Shown piece after piece: positions 51,275 through 62,639 of a DNA stretch of 64,000 nucleotides; within the stretch, counting starts at the first letter, position 1; every line of letters begins with the position of its first letter. A model generated the notes under the pieces. The model was not told the origin of the DNA, did no database searches, and saw nothing but the letters and a program-made list of their open reading frames with translations. The DNA is from Kutzneria kofuensis (GTDB taxonomy: Bacteria > Actinomycetota > Actinomycetes > Mycobacteriales > Pseudonocardiaceae). The position numbers were made by a program, and so were the translations under genes. The DNA is taken from positions 3,040,038 to 3,104,037 of the forward strand of contig NZ_JACHIR010000001.1 of assembly GCF_014203355.1 (NCBI RefSeq), read 5' to 3'.

Positions 51275-52345
51275 TCACCCGGTGGGTGGCAACCACTCCA
51301 GCCGCTGCCCGTGTCGCCCCGTCCGGGCGAGCGCCTGGGCCTGGGGATGCCCGTCCGACCAACGGACCAAACCGAGCACGCCCTCCCCCGGTTCACCCGG
51401 AAGATCATCCCGGCCGGGCATCAGCACGTGCAGCGCCGAGTCGTACGGCTCGTCGCTGGCCCACCACAGCGGCCGGCCCGCGGCCAGCTTGCCGAGCGCC
51501 GCCACGTAGTCGCCGGCCCGCTCCCCCAGCCGCAGCCCGCTGTTCACCACGACCAGCGGCAGCTCCTCGGGCAGCCGCCCGGCGGCCTCGGCCAGCCCGT
51601 CCACGGGATCGCCCGCGACCAGCTCCGGCGCCTCCTTGGCCAGCATCGTGGCGGCCACGCCCAGCCAGCGCACCCGCTCCGGCTGGTCGGCCCACACGCA
51701 CGCCTCCAGCCAGGCGAACTCGTCCGGGTCGTCGGCGTCCACCGGAGCCCGGTCCAGGCCGACCTTCGCCTTGACGGCGAGCTTCTTCGGCAGCGCGGGC
51801 GGGTCGCCGCCGAGCACGCAGTGCAGGCCGAGCGGCGTCTTGGCCGGGCCGGCGACGAACTGCCCGGCGGCGCCGGTCTGATAGCGGTAGCCGAACTTGT
51901 CCATCAGCAGCAGGAAGCCGGCGCACGAACCGACCGTCAGCAGCGCGACGGGCCCACGGGCCTGCTTGGCCGCCAGCGCCACCGCCGGGTACAGCAAGGC
52001 CGCCTTGCGTACGTCATCCGTGCGCAGGGAGCGGTTCGCCACCAACTCCCGCACCCGATCGGCCCGCTCCAGCACGAACTGCCGCCACAGCGGCCACGTG
52101 CCGTCGTCCGGGCCGGAGGCGCCGCCGAGGGTGGCGTAGTAGGCCGACAGCGGATGGATCGGGTCGGCCTGCACCAGCCGGTGCGCCGCAGCGAACAGCA
52201 GCTCCGGGTCGCGGTCGCCGAGCAGCCCCGCCACCTCGGCGTCCTCGGCCGCCCGCCCGGCCAGCAGCTGGTAGAGCGGGGACACCGCGGCGGCGTCCCC
52301 GTCGGCGAACTCACGCAGCCGGGCCGCTGCCCGCTCGGCGCTCAC
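51275..52345 (-). CDS. DUF2332 family protein
   Basis: 356 aa, GTG 52345. DUF2332 features: FAAAHRLVQADPIHPLSAYYATLGG, FVLERADRVRELVANRSLRTDDVRKAALL (in shorter pieces), LLTVGSCAGFLLLMDKFGYR and PLVVVNSGLRL. The family is seen almost only in actinobacteria and proteobacteria and has a methyltransferase-like middle (VGSCAG); function unknown. Starts 5 bases after the MaoC stop. A second DUF2332 protein is at 60883. Confidence 0.8.
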   Translation of the reverse strand: MSAERAAARLREFADGDAAAVSPLYQLLAGRAAEDAEVAGLLGDRDPELLFAAAHRLVQADPIHPLSAYYATLGGASGPDDGTWPLWRQFVLERADRVRELVANRSLRTDDVRKAALLYPAVALAAKQARGPVALLTVGSCAGFLLLMDKFGYRYQTGAAGQFVAGPAKTPLGLHCVLGGDPPALPKKLAVKAKVGLDRAPVDADDPDEFAWLEACVWADQPERVRWLGVAATMLAKEAPELVAGDPVDGLAEAAGRLPEELPLVVVNSGLRLGERAGDYVAALGKLAAGRPLWWASDEPYDSALHVLMPGRDDLPGEPGEGVLGLVRWSDGHPQAQALARTGRHGQRLEWLPPTG

Positions 52346-52349
52346 GGCG

Positions 52350-52853
52350 TCAGAGCTTCGGCTCGGGGCGGCCGGGCTGCTCGCCGCCGCGACTGTCGCC
52401 GTAGGAGCGCTTGGGCACCATCACCTTGCGCCGGTACACGCACACCACCGTCCCGTCCTGCTTGTAGCCGCGGGTCTCCACGTACACGATGCCGCGGTCG
52501 TCCTTGGACTTCGACGGAGTCTTGTCCAGCACCTCGGACTCGCCGTAGATGGTGTCGCCGTGGAAGGTCGGCGCGATGTGCCGCAGCGACTCGACCTCCA
52601 GGTTGGCGATCGCCTTGCCGGAGATGTCCGGCACCGACATGCCCAGCAGCAGCGAGTAGATGTAGTTGCCCACCACCACGTTCTTGCCGAAGTCGGTGGT
52701 CTCGCCCGCGTAGTGGGCGTCCATGTGCAGCGGGTGGTGGTTCATGGTCAGCAGGCAGAACAGGTGATCGTCGTACTCCGTGACCGTTTTGCCCGGCCAG
52801 TGCTTGTAGACCGCGCCGACCTCGAACTCCTCGAAATAACGCCCGAACTGCAC
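52350..52853 (-). CDS. MaoC-like (R)-hydratase
   Basis: 167 aa from GTG 52853, decided by GGAGGTGGAC directly upstream. Hot-dog fold: FGRYFEEFEVGAVYKHWPGK, TVTEYDDHLFCLLTMNHHPLHMD (catalytic D-x4-H) and ETTDFGKNVVVGNYIYSL. Likely hydrates or dehydrates an enoyl-CoA; similar to mesaconyl-CoA/ (R)-enoyl-CoA hydratases. Substrate unknown. Confidence 0.88.
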   Translation of the reverse strand: MQFGRYFEEFEVGAVYKHWPGKTVTEYDDHLFCLLTMNHHPLHMDAHYAGETTDFGKNVVVGNYIYSLLLGMSVPDISGKAIANLEVESLRHIAPTFHGDTIYGESEVLDKTPSKSKDDRGIVYVETRGYKQDGTVVCVYRRKVMVPKRSYGDSRGGEQPGRPEPKL

Positions 52854-52985
52854 GTCCACCTCCAGGTGTGGCCCGGACCTCGGCGGCCGGGGACGACAGT
52901 GTGGCCCCGCGAGGAGTAGTCTCTGCAACGGTGTGTGAGCGACTCCACCGCCGCACCGTCGACCTTAGGAGGTGAGGGACGCCAG

Positions 52986-53045
52986 ATGTCCAGTGCCAGT
53001 AGTAGGTACCGCGTCCCCACCGACCAGGTTCAGTCTTTCGTGTAA
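52986..53045 (+). CDS. Possible 19-aa leader peptide ahead of corA
   Basis: ORF MSSASSRYRVPTDQVQSFV with an excellent ribosome binding site (TTAGGAGGTGAGG, 7-8 bases upstream) and a TAGTCT -10 candidate at 52917-52922. It ends 59 bases before the corA ATG. Too short for the usual gene callers. A regulatory leader is a reasonable guess given known leader ORFs ahead of Mg2+ transporter genes in enterics. Confidence 0.4.
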   Translation: MSSASSRYRVPTDQVQSFV

Positions 53046-53104
53046 CGGCCTGGCCCGGCCCGGACGCGTTCGCCCTGGTTGAACCGTCCATCCCTGGAGG
53101 CCGT

Positions 53105-54190
53105 ATGCCCAGCCTGCCCTCGTTCAGCGGTCTGCGCGGACGGTCCGCCCGCACCAACGGGCGGGTCGCGCCGCCCGTCCCCGTGCCCCTGTCGGCGTAC
53201 GTCGTGGACTGCGGCGTGTACCTCGACGGAAAGCGCCTGCCCGGGCGCTGGACGCACACCGACGCGGTGCGCGAGGTGCGCAAGCGGCGCGAGGGTTTCG
53301 TCTGGATCGGCCTGTACGAGCCGGACGAGGAGCAGATCCAGGGCGTGGCCGAGACCTTCGGGCTGCACGAGCTGGCCGTGGAGGACGCGGTGCAGGCGCA
53401 CCAGCGGCCCAAGCTGGAGCGCTACGACGACACGCTGTTCATGGTGCTCAAGACGGTGCACTACATCGAGCACGACTCCCCGGACACGGCCAACGAGATC
53501 GTCGAGACCGGCGAGCTGATGGTGTTCCTGGGCAAGGACTTCGTGGTCACCGTGCGGCACGGCAAGCACGCCGGCGTCGGCACGTTGCGCCGGCAGCTGG
53601 AGGCCGATCCGGAGCGGCTGGCCATGGGCCCGGCCGCGGTGCTGCACGCGCTCGCGGACATGGCCGTCGACTCCTATCTCGCGGTCACCGAGGCCATCGA
53701 GGACGACATCGACGAGATGGAGGCGCGCGTGTTCGCGCCGCGCACCACCGTCGACGCCGAGCAGATCTACCTGATGAAGCGGGAGGTGCTGGAGCTGCGG
53801 CGCGCGGTGATGCCGCTCGCGGTGCCGCTGCGCCGGCTGTCCGAGGGCTACATCACGCTGGTGCCCGAGGACGTCCGCTCCTACTTCCGGGACGTCGAGG
53901 ACCACCTGACCACGGTGTCCGAGCACGTCGCCGGCTTCGACGAACTGCTCACCACGCTGATCGACGCGGCCCTGGCCAAGATCACGCTGCAGCAGAACAT
54001 GGACATGCGCAAGATCACCGCCTGGGCCGCGATCATCTCGGTGCCGACCATGATCGCCGGCATCTACGGCATGAACTTCGACGACATGCCGGAGCTGCAC
54101 TGGCGATTCGGCTATCCGATCGTGGTCGGCGTCATCGTGCTCAGTTGTCTGCTGCTCTACCGAATACTCCGCCGCAACCGCTGGCTGTGA
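53105..54190 (+). CDS. corA: CorA-type magnesium/cobalt transporter
   Basis: 361 aa, ATG 53105 with TGGAGG 7 bases upstream. Large cytoplasmic N-terminal domain (FVWIGLYEPDEEQIQGVAE), long stalk helix (RREV-type LMKREVLELRRAVMPL) and two C-terminal helices with the pore signature YGMNF just after the first (IISVPTMIAGIYGMNF). C-terminal RRNRWL is the basic ring end. Moves Mg2+ into the cell down its gradient. A tiny membrane protein gene follows after 32 bases. Confidence 0.95.
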   Translation: MPSLPSFSGLRGRSARTNGRVAPPVPVPLSAYVVDCGVYLDGKRLPGRWTHTDAVREVRKRREGFVWIGLYEPDEEQIQGVAETFGLHELAVEDAVQAHQRPKLERYDDTLFMVLKTVHYIEHDSPDTANEIVETGELMVFLGKDFVVTVRHGKHAGVGTLRRQLEADPERLAMGPAAVLHALADMAVDSYLAVTEAIEDDIDEMEARVFAPRTTVDAEQIYLMKREVLELRRAVMPLAVPLRRLSEGYITLVPEDVRSYFRDVEDHLTTVSEHVAGFDELLTTLIDAALAKITLQQNMDMRKITAWAAIISVPTMIAGIYGMNFDDMPELHWRFGYPIVVGVIVLSCLLLYRILRRNRWL

Positions 54191-54222
54191 CCTCACCCAT
54201 CTGAGCGACCGGAGACCCCGTC

Positions 54223-54318
54223 ATGTCCAAGATCTTGAGCAACCCGCTGTTCTGGGTCCTCACCGCGGTTCTGCTGTGGCTGGCGACCATCACCCTGATC
54301 ATCGCCCGCCAGGGCTGA
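54223..54318 (+). CDS. 31-aa single-helix membrane protein
   Basis: MSKILSNPLFWVLTAVLLWL then ATITLIIARQG, ATG 54223 with GGAGA upstream, 32 bases after corA and before its terminator. One membrane helix (about 8-28). Too short for usual callers. May be an accessory of CorA in the manner of small transporter-bound proteins; unproved. Confidence 0.55.
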   Translation: MSKILSNPLFWVLTAVLLWLATITLIIARQG

Positions 54319-54341
54319 CCACTTTCCCTTGGCGCTCAACG

Positions 54342-54366
54342 ATTTCCCGCCGGACCGGCGGGAAAT
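54342..54366 (+). terminator. Terminator of the corA unit
   Basis: ATTTCCCGCC / GGCGGGAAAT with a 5-nt loop, 23 bases after the small ORF. Confidence 0.75.
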
Positions 54367-54419
54367 AGTCGAGCCGTACTCGGTGCATCCAGCGCGCCGC
54401 CGGCACGTCTTCTCTCATG

Positions 54420-54438
54420 TCGGACCAACCGGGTCCGA
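54420..54438. promoter_or_regulatory. Inverted repeat ahead of propeller gene 1
   Basis: TCGGACC-AACCG-GGTCCGA, perfect 7-bp arms, 19 bases upstream of the ATG at 54458. Could be an operator or a leader hairpin for the array. Confidence 0.4.
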
Positions 54439-54457
54439 ACATTGAGGGGGAAACCCG

Positions 54458-55447
54458 ATGCTGCGCAACAAGTTCCGCATGGTCCTGCCGGTCGCGCTCG
54501 CCGCCGCCACCGCGGCGCTGACCATGGCCTCGCCCGCACAGGCCGCCGGCGACAACCCCGGTGACATGCAGCTGATCACCTCCGACGGCGTCGACCTCTC
54601 GCACACCATCCGCGACTTCTGGGGGAACTGGCAGCAGTTCGGCCACCTCGGTGGGTACACGGCCGTGCACGAGTTGACCTCGACCTACCACTTCGGTGAG
54701 GAGAACGCGTTCTTCCTGCACGACAACAACCAGCTGGCGCACCTGATCCGGCACAACAACGGTCAGTGGAACACGCTCGCCTCGGCGCCCGACGGCGCCG
54801 GCGTGATCCAGCTCACCAGCACCGACGTCGACGGCCACCTGACGCTGGTCGCGGTGCGCAACGGGACCGTGCAGACGACGCGCGAGAACACCGACGGCAC
54901 CTGGGCCGCTTGGACGGACGTCCCCACCGATGGCCACGGCGTGGTCGACGTCGCGGCCGTCGCGGAGGGCGGCACGCTCAAGGTTGTCGAACTCGATCAG
55001 GACTTCCGCCACATCGGCGAGTTCGAACGCTCCCCGAACGGCACGTGGACGTCCGACGGCTGGACGTGGATCGCCCCTGACTCGGGCATGTCGGCCCTCT
55101 CGATCGCCGCGGCCCAGGTCGACAACACGCTGCACGTCGCCGCAGTGGAGACCGACGGCTTCACCAACGCCGTCTACCACACGGTCCGGCCCGACAACGG
55201 CCAGTGGCAGACGCTGCCCGGGAACCTCACCGGCCCGATCAGCGACCACACCGCCGGCGCTCCCTGGTATGTCGCCGTCGCGCCGTGGGAAGGCGCACTA
55301 CAGCTGGTCTACAGCGCGAACAACGGCGACCTGAAGCACACCATTCGCCACACGGACGGCACCTGGCAGAGCTGGGGCTTGGTGCAGGCCGCGGCCGGCA
55401 ACGTCACCGCCGGTCCGGTGACCATGGCCACCAACCCGCTCGGCTGA
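54458..55447 (+). CDS. Secreted six-repeat propeller-like protein, array member 1
   Basis: 329 aa with signal peptide (MLRNKFRMVLPVALAAATAA, cut near AQAA). Six repeats of 45-50 aa, each with the pattern L-x-H-T-x-R-x(2)-D-G-x-W: LSHTIRDFWGNWQQFG, LAHLIRHNNGQWN, TTRENTDGTWAAW, GEFERSPNGTW, VYHTVRPDNGQWQ, LKHTIRHTDGTWQSWG. The regular Trp ends and Asp-Gly turns suggest a beta-propeller, perhaps lectin-like. No catalytic motif. Closest to member 4 (shared FWGNWQQFGH, YHFGEE). Ribosome site GAGGGGG. Confidence 0.75.
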   Translation: MLRNKFRMVLPVALAAATAALTMASPAQAAGDNPGDMQLITSDGVDLSHTIRDFWGNWQQFGHLGGYTAVHELTSTYHFGEENAFFLHDNNQLAHLIRHNNGQWNTLASAPDGAGVIQLTSTDVDGHLTLVAVRNGTVQTTRENTDGTWAAWTDVPTDGHGVVDVAAVAEGGTLKVVELDQDFRHIGEFERSPNGTWTSDGWTWIAPDSGMSALSIAAAQVDNTLHVAAVETDGFTNAVYHTVRPDNGQWQTLPGNLTGPISDHTAGAPWYVAVAPWEGALQLVYSANNGDLKHTIRHTDGTWQSWGLVQAAAGNVTAGPVTMATNPLG

Positions 55448-55587
55448 CGCGGTCCGTGACGCCTGCCGTCCGCCGGCTCGGCCCCGCCGTCCCGGTGGGA
55501 AAAAAATGGACCAGACCAGCTGGCAACCGAACGAGTCCCGATCACGTCTCCTTTCCGTCAGACCACCACACAAGGGGGAAGAAAGTC

Positions 55588-56595
55588 ATGCAGCGCAACG
55601 GAATCCGACTGCTCGCACCGGTCGCACTGGCAGCGGTCGCCACGGTCGGCCTGTCCGTTCTGGGGGGCGCGTCCGCACAGGCCGACACGCCGGGAACCGC
55701 CCAGCTGGTGACCATCGACCAGCAGGGCGACCTGGAGCACACCGTCCGCTCCGCGAACGGCGCCTGGCAGCCGCAGCTCGGCCAGCTTTCCGGCTACCAC
55801 AACGTTTCCGCGCTCACGTCGGTGATTCGGGCCGGTGAGGACAACATCTTCGTGCAGTACGACAACGGCTCCGGGCCGCAGCTGGGCCACCTGGTCCGGC
55901 ACGCCGACGGCACGTGGGACACCGCGGCGCAGACGCCGCCCACCCGCGCCGCGGCCCAGGAACTGAGCGTGACGAGCATCAACGGCCGGCTGGCCCTGGT
56001 GCGCCTGGACGCGTCGGGCACCCCCGAGGCCGCCGAGGAGAACGACGCCTACGGGAACTTCGGGCAGTGGTACCCGGTGCCGACCGACGGCCACAAGCTC
56101 CGGTCGATCGCTGCCGCCGGCGTCGGCGCCAGCACCACGCTGCGCGTGGTGGAGCTGACCGACGACGGCAAGTCCATCGGCGTGGCCGACGGCTCGCTCG
56201 GCGGCTGGACCACCGGCCGCTGGACGCCGAGCACGTCGAACCCGAACCTCAGCGCCACCCGGGTGGCCGCGGCCCAGGTCGCCGGGCAGCTCCAGGTCGC
56301 CGACGTGGTCAAGTCCGACACCAACGCGGACGCGATTCCGTCGGTCTGGCACGGGATTCTCGGCGACGCCGGCTGGTCCGGCTTCAACTCCGTGCCCGGC
56401 GTGTACGGCCGGCCGTACCACGTCGCGATGACCGCTGCCGGCAACGACATGCAGCTGGCCTACACCACCGAGGACGGCGGCCTGTTCCACACCGTCCGGC
56501 ACACCGCCGACGGCAGCTGGCAGCAGGACGCGGCCATGGTGCCGGGCTCCGCGAACAAGGCGCTCGGCGGCTGGGTGTCCATCGCCGGCGTCTGA
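55588..56595 (+). CDS. Secreted six-repeat propeller-like protein, array member 2
   Basis: 335 aa from ATG 55588 (AGGGGGAAG upstream); signal peptide MQRNGIRLLAPVALAAVATV ... GASAQAD. Repeats include LEHTVRSANGAWQPQLG, LGHLVRHADGTWD, a degenerate middle (NDAYGNFGQWYPVPTDG, GSLGGWTTGRW) and LFHTVRHTADGSWQQD. The most diverged member in the centre. Same length, order and C-terminal SIAG as the others. Function unknown. Confidence 0.72.
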   Translation: MQRNGIRLLAPVALAAVATVGLSVLGGASAQADTPGTAQLVTIDQQGDLEHTVRSANGAWQPQLGQLSGYHNVSALTSVIRAGEDNIFVQYDNGSGPQLGHLVRHADGTWDTAAQTPPTRAAAQELSVTSINGRLALVRLDASGTPEAAEENDAYGNFGQWYPVPTDGHKLRSIAAAGVGASTTLRVVELTDDGKSIGVADGSLGGWTTGRWTPSTSNPNLSATRVAAAQVAGQLQVADVVKSDTNADAIPSVWHGILGDAGWSGFNSVPGVYGRPYHVAMTAAGNDMQLAYTTEDGGLFHTVRHTADGSWQQDAAMVPGSANKALGGWVSIAGV

Positions 56596-56649
56596 TCAAC
56601 AAACCGAGTACTGCTCCACAGAACCATCCGACAAGGGGAGGGATCGGAA

Positions 56650-57684
56650 GTGTTCACCACCAAGATTCGTGCGGCGGCCACCATGGCACTCGCCGCGACG
56701 GCGGCACTGGCCGTCGCGGGCTTCGCCCAGGCGGCGCCGCTCCAGCCGCACGCGGCGGACCCGAACGACGTGCAGGTCGTCACCACCGACGGCAACAGCA
56801 GCCTGGTGCACACCATCCGCCACGGCGACGGCACCTGGCAGAGCTTCGGTCGGATCGGCAACTACGACGGTGTCAGCGGCCTGACCTCCACGCTGGTCAA
56901 CGGCGAGGAGAACATCTTCTTCCAGCACAGCACCGCCAAGGGCAAGATGCTGGCGCACCTCGTGCGGCACGCCGACGGCACCTGGAACATGGACGCGTCC
57001 ACCCCGGCGCTGCCGGCCGGGACGACCGTGGACAACCTCGCGGTCACTACCGTCAGCAACCAGATCAACCTGGTCCGCCGCAGCGGCAACGACGTGCAGC
57101 TGTCCACGCTGGGCGCCGACGGCGTGTGGTCGGCGTGGTCGGCCGTGCCCACCGACGGTCGGGCGCTGCGCGGCCTGTCCGCCGCCGCCTCGCAGGAGAA
57201 CGACTACCTCAACGTCGTCGAGCTCACCGCCGACGGCAAAACCGTCGTGGAGTACGTCCGCAACGGCGACGGCACCTGGACGGCCGGCAACGCGACGCCG
57301 TCCGACCCCAACGGGTACGGCGTGGCCACCGAGGTCAGCGCCGCGATGGTGGGCCAGGACCTCCAGGTCGCGGCCGTCGAGATCGACCGCACCTTCCCGG
57401 AGGTCTTCCACACGGTCCTGCACCACAACACCAACGCCTGGGACCCGTTCCGCCAACTCGTCGGCGCGGTGGGCGTCAGCTACGGCAGCCCGGCGCACGT
57501 GGCCATCACCAACGCCCCGAACGCCTTCCTGCCCACGCTCCAGCTCGTCTACACCACGAGCGACGGCGACATGTACCACACCATCCGCGACTACAACGGC
57601 AACTGGCAGCCGCTGGGCAACGTGGAGAACGCGGCCGGCAACGTGACCGCCGGCCAGGTCAGCATCGCCGGTCAGAACTTCTGA
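56650..57684 (+). CDS. Secreted six-repeat propeller-like protein, array member 3
   Basis: 344 aa, GTG 56650 (GGGGAGGGATCG before it). Signal peptide MFTTKIRAAATMALAATAAL, cut near AQAAP. Repeats: LVHTIRHGDGTWQSFGRIG, LAHLVRHADGTWN, DGVWSAWSAVPTDGR, VEYVRNGDGTW, VFHTVLHHNTNAWDPF, MYHTIRDYNGNWQPLG. Ends in AAGNVTAGQVSIAG. Closest to member 5 (both have TLVNGEEN). No Cys apart from none in the mature part that I can see. Confidence 0.75.
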   Translation: MFTTKIRAAATMALAATAALAVAGFAQAAPLQPHAADPNDVQVVTTDGNSSLVHTIRHGDGTWQSFGRIGNYDGVSGLTSTLVNGEENIFFQHSTAKGKMLAHLVRHADGTWNMDASTPALPAGTTVDNLAVTTVSNQINLVRRSGNDVQLSTLGADGVWSAWSAVPTDGRALRGLSAAASQENDYLNVVELTADGKTVVEYVRNGDGTWTAGNATPSDPNGYGVATEVSAAMVGQDLQVAAVEIDRTFPEVFHTVLHHNTNAWDPFRQLVGAVGVSYGSPAHVAITNAPNAFLPTLQLVYTTSDGDMYHTIRDYNGNWQPLGNVENAAGNVTAGQVSIAGQNF

Positions 57685-57719
57685 TCCGCCACAAACTCAG
57701 CAGGGGGGAACGAACCATC

Positions 57720-58694
57720 ATGAAGACCACGAAGCTGGTGCTGCCGCTGGTGCTGGCCGCGACGGCGGCGCTGGGCCTCATGCAGGCGGCGCAAGCCACG
57801 CCGGCGCCCGAGGGGGAGGTGCAGCTGCTGACCACGGACGGCAACAGCGGCCTGGCCCACACCGTCCGCGGTTTCTGGGGGAACTGGCAGCAGTTCGGCC
57901 ACATCGACGGCTACAACGGCGTGACGGCCATGGCCTCGATCTACCACTTCGGCGAGGAGCACGCGTTCGTCCAGCACGACGGCGGGCAGCTCTCACACCT
58001 CGTCCGGCACCAGGACGGCAACTGGGACTACCAGGCCTCGACGCCGGCCGGTGACAAGCTGGACGGCCTGTCCGCCACCGACTACCAGAACCACCTCACG
58101 TTGGTGGGGCTGCGGGGCGGGAACGTCCAGATGACGAGCCAGCAGGACGACGGCTCCTGGGCGCCGTGGACCGCCGTGCCCTCCGACGGCAGGAGCATCC
58201 GCAGCGTCGCCGTGGTCAACGACGGCGTCGAGCTCAAGGTCGTCGAGCTGGCCGCCGACGGCAAGGCCGTGGGCGAGTTCGAGCGGTCGGAGGGCAACCA
58301 GTGGTCGAAGGGCAACTGGCAGGCGGCCAACCAGGATCCGGGGGCGGTCGCCTCCGAGATCTCCGCGGCCTACGTGGCCGGCCAGCTCCAGGTCGCCGCG
58401 GTGGAGACCCGCGGCGGCTTCACCGAGGTGGACCACGCCACGATGACGGACAGCGGCGGCTGGAGCATCTTCCGGTCCCTCACCTACGCGATCGGAGTCT
58501 TCTACGGCAACGCCGTGCACGTCGCGGTGGTGCCGTGGGTGGGCGCCCTGCAGCTGGCCTACAGCACCAGCGACGGCCGGCTGTACCACACCGTCCGGTA
58601 CGAGAACGGCAACTGGCAGAGCTGGGGTGACGTGGAAGGCGCCGCCGGCAACATCACCGCCGGCCCATTGACCATGGCCTCGGCCACCTCCTGA
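57720..58694 (+). CDS. Secreted six-repeat propeller-like protein, array member 4
   Basis: 324 aa, ATG 57720 (GGGGGGAACG upstream, 36 bases after member 3). Signal peptide MKTTKLVLPLVLAATAALGL, cut near AQATP. Clearest repeats: LAHTVRGFWGNWQQFG (about 43-58), LSHLVRHQDGNWD, TSQQDDGSWAPWTAV, GEFERSEGNQWS, VDHATMTDSGGWSIF, LYHTVRYENGNWQSWG, ending AAGNITAGPLTMA. Blades of about 47 aa. Followed by the only terminator inside the array. Confidence 0.75.
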   Translation: MKTTKLVLPLVLAATAALGLMQAAQATPAPEGEVQLLTTDGNSGLAHTVRGFWGNWQQFGHIDGYNGVTAMASIYHFGEEHAFVQHDGGQLSHLVRHQDGNWDYQASTPAGDKLDGLSATDYQNHLTLVGLRGGNVQMTSQQDDGSWAPWTAVPSDGRSIRSVAVVNDGVELKVVELAADGKAVGEFERSEGNQWSKGNWQAANQDPGAVASEISAAYVAGQLQVAAVETRGGFTEVDHATMTDSGGWSIFRSLTYAIGVFYGNAVHVAVVPWVGALQLAYSTSDGRLYHTVRYENGNWQSWGDVEGAAGNITAGPLTMASATS

Positions 58695-58710
58695 CCCGGG
58701 GGGGAGGAGG

Positions 58711-58741
58711 AACGCCCGTCGTCACGGTGACGGCGGGCGTT
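58711..58741 (+). terminator. Terminator between array members 4 and 5
   Basis: AACGCCCGTCGTCA / TGACGGCGGGCGTT with a 3-nt loop and one G-U pair, 17 bases after the member 4 stop, followed by TTCG. Splits the array into at least two transcripts. Confidence 0.8.
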
Positions 58742-58817
58742 TCGCCGCTTTCGGGCAACCTGAGCCGCCTCGGCGGCGTGTAGAGGGAGATCACACCGAA
58801 TCGGGGAGGGAAACGGA

Positions 58818-59840
58818 GTGAGAACCAGGATGACCGCCGGCGCGGTGCTCGTGGCGGCAACGGCGCTGGCATTCGGCCCGGCAGCCCAGGCGGCACCGGC
58901 CAAGCCGAACGCCGCGAACCCGCTCGACGTGCAGATCGTGACCACGGACGGCTACAACAGCCTGGCGCACACGATCCGGCACGGCGACGGCAGCTGGCAG
59001 AGCTTCGGCCGGCTCGACGGCCGCACCGGTGTCACCGCCTTGACATCCACGCTGGTCAACGGCGAGGAGAACGTGTTCTTCCAGGAGAGCGGCGGGCCGA
59101 ACCCGCCGCGGCTGACCCATCTCGTCCGGCACGCGGACGGCACCTGGAACCTCGACGCCTCGGTGCCGGCGTGGCCGGACGGCGTGTCGTCGGCGGAGAG
59201 CCTGGCGGCAACCACGGGCCAGGGCCGGCTGAGCCTGGTGCTGCTGCAGGGTGGCGTGCCGCAACTGTCCACATTGGGCAGTGACGGCGTGTGGTCGGCG
59301 TGGTCGCCGGTGCCCACCGGCGGCCGCTGGGTGCACCGCATCGCCGCCACCGGCGACAGCAACACGACGACCGTCGTCGAGCTCAACATGGACAGCCAGA
59401 CCGTGACCTCCTTCGTCCGGGGCTTCAAGGACCAGTGGTCGGGCGGCAGCAGCACGCCGGCCAACCCGAACCCGAACGCCTACGCGGTCGAGATCAGCGC
59501 CGCCCAGGTGGGAGCCGATCTGCAGGTGGCGGCCATCGAGTGGGAAGGCGGATTCCCGTCGGTCTACCACTCGGTCAAGCACCGGGACACCGGCTGGGAC
59601 CCGTTCCGCAACCTGACCGGCGCGCTGCCGGCGGTCTACGGCGAGCCGTTGCACGTGGCCATCACCTACTACCCGGCGCCCTTCGACGACGAGCTGCAAC
59701 TCGTCTACACGACGGCCACGGACGGGATGTACCACACCATCCGGCACGCCAACGGCAGCTGGCAGCCGCTGGGTGACGTGGAGGGCGCGGCCGGCAACGT
59801 GACCGCCGGCCAGGTCACCATCGCCGGCTACACCCGCTGA
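58818..59840 (+). CDS. Secreted six-repeat propeller-like protein, array member 5
   Basis: 340 aa from GTG 58818 (GGGGAGGG upstream; ATG 58830 is possible). Short signal peptide MRTRMTAGAVLVAATALAFG ... AQAAP. Repeats LAHTIRHGDGSWQSFGRLD, LTHLVRHADGTWN, DGVWSAWSPVPTGGR, FVRGFKDQW, VYHSVKHRDTGWDPF, MYHTIRHANGSWQPLG. Nearly the same arrangement as member 3, including NGEEN and WDPFR-N/Q-L. Ends AAGNVTAGQVTIAG. Confidence 0.75.
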   Translation: MRTRMTAGAVLVAATALAFGPAAQAAPAKPNAANPLDVQIVTTDGYNSLAHTIRHGDGSWQSFGRLDGRTGVTALTSTLVNGEENVFFQESGGPNPPRLTHLVRHADGTWNLDASVPAWPDGVSSAESLAATTGQGRLSLVLLQGGVPQLSTLGSDGVWSAWSPVPTGGRWVHRIAATGDSNTTTVVELNMDSQTVTSFVRGFKDQWSGGSSTPANPNPNAYAVEISAAQVGADLQVAAIEWEGGFPSVYHSVKHRDTGWDPFRNLTGALPAVYGEPLHVAITYYPAPFDDELQLVYTTATDGMYHTIRHANGSWQPLGDVEGAAGNVTAGQVTIAGYTR

Positions 59841-59907
59841 GGCAACCTCGGACGGCGGCCGGGCGTGAACGATTCGAGGCAGTTTTTCGGGGAGGGGAAA
59901 CACAGTC

Positions 59908-60882
59908 ATGTCACGCATCGTTCGCGCCCTGGTTCCGCTGACGGCCGGCGCCATGCTGGCCGCGGGTACGGCAGTTCCGGCGCAGGCCGCGCCACAGGCG
60001 GTCGGTGACGTCCAGCTCGTCACCGGCGCCGGTTGGCGGGACCTGCACCACACCATCCGCTACGCCGACGGCAACTGGCAGCGGTGGGGCTCGTTCGCCA
60101 GCTACAACGACGAGAACCAGCAGCTGGCGTCGGTAGTGATCAACGGTGTCGAGCACGTCGTCTCGTACGGCACCTACGTGCACATGCCCCCGCAGTCCAC
60201 GTATGACCACGTCATGCGGGACGCGGCCGGCAACTGGTCCGAGGGCACGTTGCCGACCGGGATGGACGGCTCCGCGGAGGCCGTCGCGAACCTGAACGGC
60301 CACCTCGCGTTGGTGCGTAAGGTGGGCGACGGCCTCAAGCTGTCCGTCCAGCAGGACGACAACACGTGGTCGGCGGTGGAGACCGTGCCCACCACCGACG
60401 GGATCGGCAGCTTCTCCGTCACCGCCAACGGGGACGTGCTGCGGGTCGTGGTGTCCACTTCGGACGGAACGCGGATCGGCGACTACGAGCGGGCCGCCAA
60501 CGGCACGTGGGCGCAGCCCAGCTGGGTTCCGTTCAACGGCGGCACTGCGACGCAGGTTGCGGTCGCGCAGGTCGGCACGGACCTACAGGTGGCCGCGGTG
60601 GCGCACAACGGGGACCGGTCCGAGGTGTGGCACGGCATCCGCCACGCCAACGGCTCCTGGGACCAGTTCGGCTACGTCGAGGGTGCGGCCGGCGACATCC
60701 CGGCGGTCAAGCAGATCGCCGTGACGAACTCGCGTGGCACGCTGCAGCTCGTCGCCTCGACCACGGACGGCGGGCTGTTCCACACGATCCGGTTCGCCAA
60801 CCGCACCTGGCAGCGCTTCGGCGACGTCAAGGCCGCGGCCGGCCCGACGTCGGTCGGCGAGATCTCGCTGGCCGGGGAGTGA
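59908..60882 (+). CDS. Secreted six-repeat propeller-like protein, array member 6
   Basis: 324 aa, ATG 59908 with GGGGAGGGG upstream. Signal peptide MSRIVRALVPLTAGAMLAAG, cut near AQAAP. Repeats LHHTIRYADGNWQRWG, YDHVMRDAAGNWSEG, VQQDDNTWSAVETV, GDYERAANGTWAQ, VWHGIRHANGSWDQFG and LFHTIRFANRTWQRFG. Diverged from the rest at the end (AAGPTSVGEISLAG). Last of the array; converges on the DUF2332 gene with only two bases between stops. Confidence 0.73.
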   Translation: MSRIVRALVPLTAGAMLAAGTAVPAQAAPQAVGDVQLVTGAGWRDLHHTIRYADGNWQRWGSFASYNDENQQLASVVINGVEHVVSYGTYVHMPPQSTYDHVMRDAAGNWSEGTLPTGMDGSAEAVANLNGHLALVRKVGDGLKLSVQQDDNTWSAVETVPTTDGIGSFSVTANGDVLRVVVSTSDGTRIGDYERAANGTWAQPSWVPFNGGTATQVAVAQVGTDLQVAAVAHNGDRSEVWHGIRHANGSWDQFGYVEGAAGDIPAVKQIAVTNSRGTLQLVASTTDGGLFHTIRFANRTWQRFGDVKAAAGPTSVGEISLAGE

Positions 60883-61947
60883 CTAGCCCCAGGGCCGTTC
60901 CTCCCAGGTGAACGGCAGGCCGTGGCCCCGGCCATGGCCCAGCCGCAGCGACAGGCCCGCGGGCCACAGCTTCAGCAGCAGCTCGAAGTTCCCGTGGGCC
61001 CGCCGCGGCTCGTAGACGAGGAGCGCTAGCGGGGCGCTCCCGGTGGCGCGGGCCGCCGCCCCGGCAAGGGCGGCGCGCCCGCGTTCGCGTTCGGCGGGGG
61101 ACGCGTACTGCCACATCACCGAGTGCCACACGACCGTCAGCACACCTTCGGGCAGTTCGGCCAGCTGCCGCTCCAGCCACTCGGCCCCGGGTGCCCGCTC
61201 GACCTGGACCGGATCGCTCTGGGCGAGGCGCATCGCCGCCCGCAGCCGTTCCAGCCGCTGTGTCATGTCCGCCCAGACGAACGAGGCGAGGTGCAGCTGC
61301 CCCGCCTTCGTCGACACGTCGACCGGGTTCACGTCGCAGCCGGCCCGGCTGTGCAGCACCAGCGGCCGGCTCAGGTCCGCCGGCGGCAGCCCCGTCCACT
61401 CCGGGTCCAGCTGCAGCTCGCTGTCGGGGTCGCCGAGCACGGTGCCGTCGGCCAGCCGGTAGGCGACCTTGTGCGGCCGCAGGTTCAGGCCGCCGCTGGC
61501 GCCGACCTCCAGCAGCCGCACCGGCAGCCCGCCGACCCGCTCCGACGCCACCAGCAGCCCGCCGTACAGCGGCCCGCTGCGGCCGGGCTCGTTGGTCTGC
61601 ACGGCGTTCGCGCGCACCAGCTGGCGCACCTCGACCTCGTGCTCCTTCAACGTCGCCTCGGCGGCCGGCCACAGCGTCGCCAGCCGGGGCTCGCCGCCCA
61701 CGCTCGGGTAGTGCGTGGCCAGTTCCGGGGCGCGGCCGTCGAGCACGACGTGGTGCAGCGCGGCGGCGAAGCGCAGCCCCGGCACGGTGCCCGGACGGTC
61801 CCGTTCCGAGCCGGCCATCGCGCGACCGGTGATGCCGCCCGCGTCCAGGTCGTCGGCGGCGGAGTTCAGCAGTGTGTAGGTCAGGGGGCTGCCGATGCGG
61901 CAGGAGGCCGAGATGTCGCGGAACAGCTTCGCCAGCACACCGTGCAC
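60883..61947 (-). CDS. DUF2332 family protein, second copy
   Basis: 354 aa, GTG 61947. DUF2332: LFRDISASCRIGSPLTYTLLNSAADD, LLEVGASGGLNLRPHK (SAM-like glycine loop), VVWHSVMWQY, and FELLLKLWPAGLSLRLGHG. The loop resembles methyltransferase motif I but no substrate is known. About 25% alike to the protein at 51275 by eye, so an old paralog. Divergent from the phosphoesterase gene at 61974. Confidence 0.82.
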   Translation of the reverse strand: MHGVLAKLFRDISASCRIGSPLTYTLLNSAADDLDAGGITGRAMAGSERDRPGTVPGLRFAAALHHVVLDGRAPELATHYPSVGGEPRLATLWPAAEATLKEHEVEVRQLVRANAVQTNEPGRSGPLYGGLLVASERVGGLPVRLLEVGASGGLNLRPHKVAYRLADGTVLGDPDSELQLDPEWTGLPPADLSRPLVLHSRAGCDVNPVDVSTKAGQLHLASFVWADMTQRLERLRAAMRLAQSDPVQVERAPGAEWLERQLAELPEGVLTVVWHSVMWQYASPAERERGRAALAGAAARATGSAPLALLVYEPRRAHGNFELLLKLWPAGLSLRLGHGRGHGLPFTWEERPWG

Positions 61948-61973
61948 GCTAGCCGCTCGTACGCTTGGCGGTC

Positions 61974-62639
61974 ATGGCCAAACTGCTCGCTGTATCCGAC
62001 GAGGTCGTCGAGAAGCTGTGGACCGACCAGGTCCGGCGGCTCGACGTCGACCTCGTGCTCGGCGCGGGCGACCTGCCGTTCGACTATCTGGAGTACCTGG
62101 CGAGCGCGCTGGACCGGCCGTGCGTGTTCGTGCCCGGCAATCACGACCCGGACCTCGGCGGCTACACGAACGTGCGCGGGCTGTGGACCCGGGCCGGCAT
62201 GCCGGCGGACTGGCCGGGGCCGGCCGGCGGGGTGAACGTGGACGGGGCCGTGGTCGACGTGGCCGGGCTGCGGATCGCCGGCCTGGGCGGCTCGGTCCGC
62301 TACCGCGGCGGCCCCAACCAGTGGACCGAGCGGCAGCAGGCGCGGCGGGCCCGGCGGATGGCCCGGCTGGCGGGCTGGCGCCGGCTGCGGGACGGTCGCG
62401 GCGTGGACGTGCTCCTGACGCACTCGCCGCCGGCCGGCTGCGGCGACCTGCCGGACGACCCGCCGCACCGGGGCTTCGCCTGCCTGCACGACACCGTGCG
62501 GCGGCTGCGGCCGAAGTTGCTGCTGCACGGCCACATCCACCCGCACGGCGCCGCGACGCCGGACCGGCGGCTCGGCGACACGCGGGTGGTCAACGTGGTC
62601 GGCTACCAGGTGTTCGAGGTGGTGCCCGATGGCCCGTGA
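61974..62639 (+). CDS. Metallophosphoesterase-like protein
   Basis: 221 aa, ATG 61974. Calcineurin-like motifs: LGAGDLPFDYLEYL (GD), FVPGNHDPDLGG (GNHD), LLTHSPPAGCGD and LLHGHIHPHG (GHxH). The usual first D-x-H reads SDE (LLAVSDEVVEKL), so metal site 1 is incomplete. Predicted phosphodiesterase or phosphatase, substrate unknown. Its end overlaps the ParB-like gene by 11 bases. Confidence 0.85.
   Translation: MAKLLAVSDEVVEKLWTDQVRRLDVDLVLGAGDLPFDYLEYLASALDRPCVFVPGNHDPDLGGYTNVRGLWTRAGMPADWPGPAGGVNVDGAVVDVAGLRIAGLGGSVRYRGGPNQWTERQQARRARRMARLAGWRRLRDGRGVDVLLTHSPPAGCGDLPDDPPHRGFACLHDTVRRLRPKLLLHGHIHPHGAATPDRRLGDTRVVNVVGYQVFEVVPDGP

Follow-up and report, generated by a model that had tools for sequence, protein, structure and literature searches.

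In the umbrella toxins, lectins that recognise variable polymers of the wall determine which cells are attacked. The lectin domains of UmbA fall into 41 families, four of them six-bladed, and the six-bladed propeller of UmbA4 binds a teichuronic-acid-like wall polymer (PMC13274773); UmbA docks on UmbB via its trypsin domain (PMC11062931), and in Streptomyces the trypsin and lectin domains are reported to be encoded by distinct genes that lie side by side (PMC13274773). The other close parallel comes from Photorhabdus laumondii, where five co-localised paralogous propeller lectins, PLL1-5, have N-terminal tails described as not being recognised as signal peptides (PMC12203525). Here we describe an array of six paralogous genes, g1 to g6 (positions 54458-60882, plus strand), in a 64,000-nucleotide stretch of Kutzneria kofuensis (contig NZ_JACHIR010000001.1, 3,040,038-3,104,037), hereafter the window; the whole genome comprises 10.4 Mb on 5 contigs. 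We hold with moderate confidence, on grounds of sequence comparison, that the array encodes secreted stand-alone lectins for actinobacterial surface glycopolymers, which would have diversified within the array.

The products are 324-344 aa long and share 34-58% identity in pairwise BLAST comparisons: g1 (54458-55447, 329 aa), g2 (55588-56595, 335 aa), g3 (56650-57684, 344 aa), g4 (57720-58694, 324 aa), g5 (58818-59840, 340 aa) and g6 (59908-60882, 324 aa), the last being the most divergent paralogue. The gaps between the genes, from g1 to g6, are 140, 54, 35, 123 and 67 bp, and a G-rich stretch (GGGG) stands immediately 5' of every gene (6/6); the start of g2 is the ATG at 55588 within a longer open reading frame (ORF) from 55204, and that of g4 the ATG at 57720 within a longer ORF from 55914. 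The N-terminus of all six proteins is hydrophobic and contains an AxA motif, features that we read as a signal peptide. Beyond it, hydropathy on the Kyte-Doolittle scale exceeds 1.38 in no 19-residue window of any of the six, the LPxTG motif was found in none of them, and the cysteine count is zero in each of the 16 array proteins known from three Kutzneria genomes. An earlier sequence-only reading of this DNA had described six consecutive plus-strand genes of this size, each with a signal peptide and with neither an anchor nor a Cys pattern, and all of this is borne out.

The proteins are built of a repeat of about 47 aa, six units of which cover nearly the whole mature protein (in g4, mature residues 6-36, 58-83, 94-128, 143-170, 191-229 and 247-280). 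When a profile of the unit, built up from the last repeat, was run on the 16 array proteins, 87 units scored 10 bits or more, against none in 320 residue-shuffled copies, a result that shows the repeat but not its independence, as the profile was trained on the same 16 proteins. With the floor at 0 bits, six units were recovered in 14 of the 16 proteins and five in g5, where the fourth unit was missed, and in copy 6 of Kutzneria sp. 744; several units are weak, and two in g2 score below 2 bits. Tryptophan is the sole invariant unit residue (92/92 aligned units), and the third position after it is F or W in 50 units; in the PLL/CV39L lectins, two Trp form a hydrophobic pocket for fucose between blades. 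The six repeats claimed in the sequence-only reading are thus real, but the pattern L-x-H-T-x-R-x2-D-G-x-W on which they were said to be built is only a consensus, with four literal occurrences across the six array proteins. Unit 1 starts at the strand preceded, in later units, by a conserved stretch of strand-like character; the pattern of this stretch recurs in the C-terminal tail beyond the last unit, an arrangement that argues for ring closure by the usual strand exchange of propellers with six blades. The array proteins are therefore probably closed six-bladed beta-propellers, as far as a fold can be predicted from the repeat.

In some relatives the same domain is fused to others. When the array was aligned by hhalign with the C-terminal domains of six UmbA-type proteins, the match took in almost the full profile and reached 99.8% (E 3.1e-28, 266 columns), and with seven other fused domains, i.e., three on wall hydrolases, one on a PLDc protein and three with unassigned N-terminal parts, it reached 99.9% (E 2.1e-35), while no control alignment, whether reversed (two) or column-shuffled (20), exceeded 0.4%. 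Relatives of the array in other actinobacteria are sparse at E 1e-8: among 397 genomes of the order at least 12 contain one, and among 394 of the class at least 9, the own genome being included in both; the genome searches scored part of the candidates (in the own genome, 36/77 in the genus search and 5/89 in the order and class searches), and all absences and tallies from them are lower bounds. ORFs sharing the last 60 residues of the repeat region were merged into 39 entries, several with overlong starts, and nine of these were set aside (five copies of window genes and four cut duplicates). Of the 30 relatives that remained, the Pfam scan took in all except L050 and L052. Among these 28, the partner domains above cut-off are trypsin in six, CHAP in two, and transglycosylase, M23, an Rv2525c-like glycoside-hydrolase-like domain and PLDc in one each. 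Two relatives (L036:5470-7104 and L038:2913-4550), for which Pfam reported no such domain, look NlpC/P60-like by eye.

The six trypsin-bearing relatives have Ser at the place of the catalytic His and Ala or Thr at that of the catalytic Ser (6/6), and look like UmbA-type proteins whose trypsin domain is inactivated. Of these, L087 alone was compared with the PDB, where it matched 8w20_C (E 1.6e-54) and 9oee_A (E 7.7e-44) over the trypsin part; 8W20 is the structure of the umbrella paper (PMC11062931), and 9oee we infer to be UmbA4. CBM_6 is matched by the repeats of L087 as well (31.7 bits; cut-off 28.9) and, below cut-off, by those of several other relatives, which may reflect a resemblance of repeat on strand. 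ALF repeats, which form the UmbC ring, lie within about 7 kb of five of the six UmbA-type relatives but not of the sixth (L083). They occur in six of the eight genomes checked, and the two genomes lacking them (G682 and G703) hold PHP-type relatives. Judged from these alignments, the domain is one already known from the C-termini of UmbA-type proteins and some wall hydrolases. The array resembles UmbA lectin domains in its six-unit homology and in forming a diversified set within one genome, six-bladed propellers being among the reported UmbA lectins (PMC13274773), and differs from UmbA in being a free, tandem array with neither a trypsin adaptor nor a nearby ALF/UmbC gene. With the wall hydrolases (CHAP, M23 and transglycosylase) it shares the six-unit domain but not a catalytic one. 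In genome G549, adjacent CHAP, M23 and transglycosylase genes (L113:6485-10917) each end in a very similar propeller, the other copies being 87-88% identical to the first; it looks as though a single targeting domain had been spread across a set of wall hydrolases. These three are among the seven fused domains aligned above.

The genome of K. kofuensis itself holds three large ALF-repeat genes and a gene for an UmbA-type protein that combines trypsin and F5/8C domains (G000:C1:2087680-2106797, L078 and L079), probably an umbrella-toxin locus in Kutzneria, to judge from its domain content. We considered the array as a part of this locus and rejected the idea, because the UmbA-type protein of the locus has F5/8C domains and the array profile matches none of the genes called there (best E 0.25). 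Ten genes around the array were scanned with Pfam, and neither a trypsin domain nor an umbB or umbC gene was found among them; together with the distance of about 0.99 Mb to the ALF genes, the missing trypsin neighbour suggests that the array is not an umbrella locus. ALF repeats are present in five of seven Kutzneria genomes, and the array in three of those five and in neither of the other two, numbers too small to interpret.

On the array proteins themselves, Pfam reported no family above cut-off in any of the six and no trypsin match, and a known enzyme family spanning the whole length, which had been named as grounds for abandoning a propeller reading, was likewise not found by Pfam in any of them. 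NCBIfam gave propeller-lectin matches below cut-off in three of the six (E 1.2e-5 to 3.4e-9), namely beta_propeller_lectin in g2 (E 2.4e-8) and CV39L_fam_lectin in g3 (E 3.4e-9) and g4 (E 1.2e-5). The best scores lie far under the cut-offs of the models NF052348 and NF052350 (36.2 against 350 bits and 33.5 against 200 bits). The description of the array as having no assigned function thus holds at the level of Pfam families above cut-off and needs amending for these three proteins. Searched against the PDB (177,635 sequences), a profile of the 16 array sequences had one significant match, the CV39L lectin 6gxs_A (E 4.7e-7). A profile of the six window proteins alone gave nothing significant there, the profile of the seven fused domains had no match, and single relatives used as bridges to PLL structures matched none. 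CV39L comes from Chromobacterium and BP39L from Burkholderia. The sequence relationship of these PLL-type lectins to the array is detectable, and the genes of the array are co-localised paralogues as in P. laumondii; the differences are that the array proteins have six units where the PLL family has seven blades, possess signal peptides and match the NCBIfam models only far below cut-off. Together, the sub-threshold NCBIfam matches, CV39L 6gxs and the hhalign comparisons support the proposal that these are secreted propeller-type binders distantly like the PLL lectins. That they form an undescribed system would hold for the array, of which we found no description in the open-access literature (none of the open-access papers on Kutzneria and lectins concerns it, judged by title and the start of the abstract), and not of the domain, which UmbA-type proteins and wall hydrolases share.

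A scan of named genomes found three loci, in Kutzneria sp. 744, Kutzneria sp. CA-103260 and one Streptomyces. The check for tandem copies elsewhere that had been proposed thus located arrays at the same site in the two Kutzneria species, and the arrangement of corA, array and DUF2332 gene is present in three of seven Kutzneria genomes, with six genes in the window, six in sp. 744 and four in CA-103260. In a maximum-likelihood tree of 18 proteins, g1, g3, g4 and g5 pair in order with copies 1-4 of sp. 744 (69%, 76%, 71% and 77% identity, support 100/99 or 100/100). In the same tree g6 falls into one clade with copies 5 and 6 of sp. 744 and copy 4 of CA-103260, to which it is 73% identical, and g2 groups with copy 1 of CA-103260 with a support of 87/87 only. 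The ordered pairing indicates that the duplications in the array predate at least the split between the window and sp. 744. The diversification in place suggested by the sequence-only reading therefore stands as duplication within the array, with the addition that at least two of the three Kutzneria species diverged after it. The gene corA is present in all seven Kutzneria genomes. In G005 its junction with the DUF2332 gene is closed, with about 150 bp between both genes, and in G003 and G004 there was no array match, and no DUF2332 match lay within the 1.5 kb examined on that side of corA. In G001, the junction holds a single-unit, frame-broken remnant (L044:808-942), one propeller unit between an apparent array-gene start and end, which likely arose by collapse between the first and last repeats. 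The array is old and maintained, with copies gained, lost and decayed over time.

The array changes fast. By Nei-Gojobori counting, the five orthologue pairs have dN/dS of 0.94, 0.96, 0.66, 0.53 and 0.54 (identity 69-77%, dS 0.17-0.35), whereas six flanking genes, in nine comparisons, stay at 0.04-0.25 (dS 0.16-0.35), so that the excess lies in dN and dS is alike. Less certain or more distant pairs gave 0.98 (g3 and CA-103260 copy 2), 0.72 (g6 and sp. 744 copy 5) and 1.18 (g2 and CA-103260 copy 1), and two paralogue pairs 0.91 and 0.89. Across 914 aligned unit residues of the five orthologue pairs, 222 differ, unevenly over the positions (chi2 119, 35 df). Trp differs in 0/29, the inner-strand part in 49/288 and the outer-strand part in 147/550, a division into strands that was chosen after the per-position counts were known, and seven positions of the predicted outer strands differ in 38-54%. 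Such uneven change would be expected if a fixed framework carried a varying outer face.

In the account that we favour, the array would provide six co-secreted, unanchored, six-bladed propeller lectins of the same family as some UmbA C-terminal and wall-hydrolase domains. Each would act as a soluble multivalent lectin, with pockets between or on the blades that take up several copies of a surface glycopolymer, as in UmbA4 and PLL, and the six copies would differ in the glycan recognised. Most likely the set coats or cross-links the wall polymers of neighbouring or own actinobacterial hyphae, and the outcome could be adhesion, agglutination or receptor blocking. We infer the sugar binding from the published binding of relatives, and the occurrence of the domain on UmbA-type proteins and wall hydrolases makes a bacterial surface a more likely target than a host glycan. 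A tandem array free of toxin, adaptor and enzyme, both old and fast-changing, suggests that actinomycetes also use such lectins by themselves, which could mean blocking, agglutination or self-recognition, and six small secreted proteins are directly testable on wall polymers. Several observations weigh against this account. Sixteen of the 28 scanned relatives have no partner domain above the curated cut-off (two of them show weak PHP matches below it and the other 14 nothing convincing), and the array was not found in four of the seven Kutzneria genomes. Values of dN/dS of 0.5-1 also fit relaxed constraint, and the counting method is biased in GC-rich genes. Furthermore, neither the array profile nor that of the UmbA-type domains matches the umbrella chains 8w20 and 9oee; the structurally characterised UmbA lectin domains thus belong to other families than that of the array, so that the array domain would be another of the UmbA domain families. 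A narrower version, in which the copies occupy the wall glycopolymers used as umbrella receptors on own or kin hyphae and so block incoming particles, seems to us improbable; if true, it would be a defence built from the attacker's own recognition domain.

The fast change itself would suit structural proteins of the hyphal sheath or wall that lack specific sugar recognition and evolve under weak constraint: dN/dS reaches 0.96 in clear orthologue pairs and 1.18 for g2 and CA-103260 copy 1, the array is absent from G005 and reduced to the remnant in G001, and decayed or partial copies occur elsewhere in sp. 744. Change that is strongly uneven over unit positions around an invariant Trp, and an orthologous order maintained between two species, make this rather improbable. 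Less unlikely, with a small but appreciable chance, is a PLL-like set aimed at insects, nematodes, fungi or other eukaryotes through fucosylated or O-methylated glycans, for which the five co-located paralogues of P. laumondii offer a close formal parallel (PMC12203525) and CV39L is the only significant PDB relative. Against it stand the actinobacterial relatives fused to umbrella-type and wall-acting domains, the six units in place of seven blades, the signal peptides of the array where the PLL tails are reported as not recognised as such (PMC12203525), and the ten scanned neighbours, which include no recognised insect or nematode toxin and one gene without a Pfam family. Lectin arms supplied in trans, docking without a fused trypsin on umbrella adaptors encoded elsewhere in the genome, could draw on the UmbC-like ALF genes and the UmbA-type gene that lie at 2.087-2.107 Mb, and have a precedent in the split trypsin and lectin genes reported in Streptomyces (PMC13274773). 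Those genes adjoin, however, whereas the scanned neighbours of the array lack a trypsin and the ALF genes are about 0.99 Mb off, and the array proteins lack the domain by which UmbA docks on UmbB (PMC11062931), so that we regard such supply as quite unlikely. Enzymes acting on polysaccharides, e.g., lyases or hydrolases with a propeller fold, have the faintest claim and are very improbable: one array unit aligns locally with the L-rhamnose-alpha-1,4-D-glucuronate lyases 7esk/7esl, but over 40 residues and at a non-significant E of about 0.1, no Pfam family is above cut-off, and the conserved residues sit, by eye and with no formal test, in the repeated framework.

The conserved flanks of the array lie outside the function proposed for it. 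To the left is corA (PF01544, 53105-54190, plus strand) and to the right a DUF2332 gene (PF10094, 60883-61947, minus strand), and a second minus-strand DUF2332 paralogue at 51275-52345 completes a pair that brackets the block of corA and lectin genes. Rfam reported no match within 52000-62500, the promoter scan found none, and the terminator scan turned up a single terminator-like site, on the minus strand, where chance alone gives a mean of 2.8.

Further propeller-like genes lie elsewhere in Kutzneria. Decayed or partial extra copies of array-type genes are present in sp. 744 (L034 and L035) and CA-103260 (L041). On contig C2 of the own genome (about 612.3-614.5 kb, L080:3276-5528), a 750-aa protein matches the array profile weakly, with an E of 3.8e-4 in one search and 5.3e-7 in another against a few dozen ORFs, and is a possible distant propeller on the strength of this match. 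Sp. 744 also encodes a 569-aa protein (L063:1291-3000) whose repeats are more PLL-like, with a CV39L family match below cut-off (E 5e-27), and whose N-terminus is, by eye, Cys-peptidase-like.

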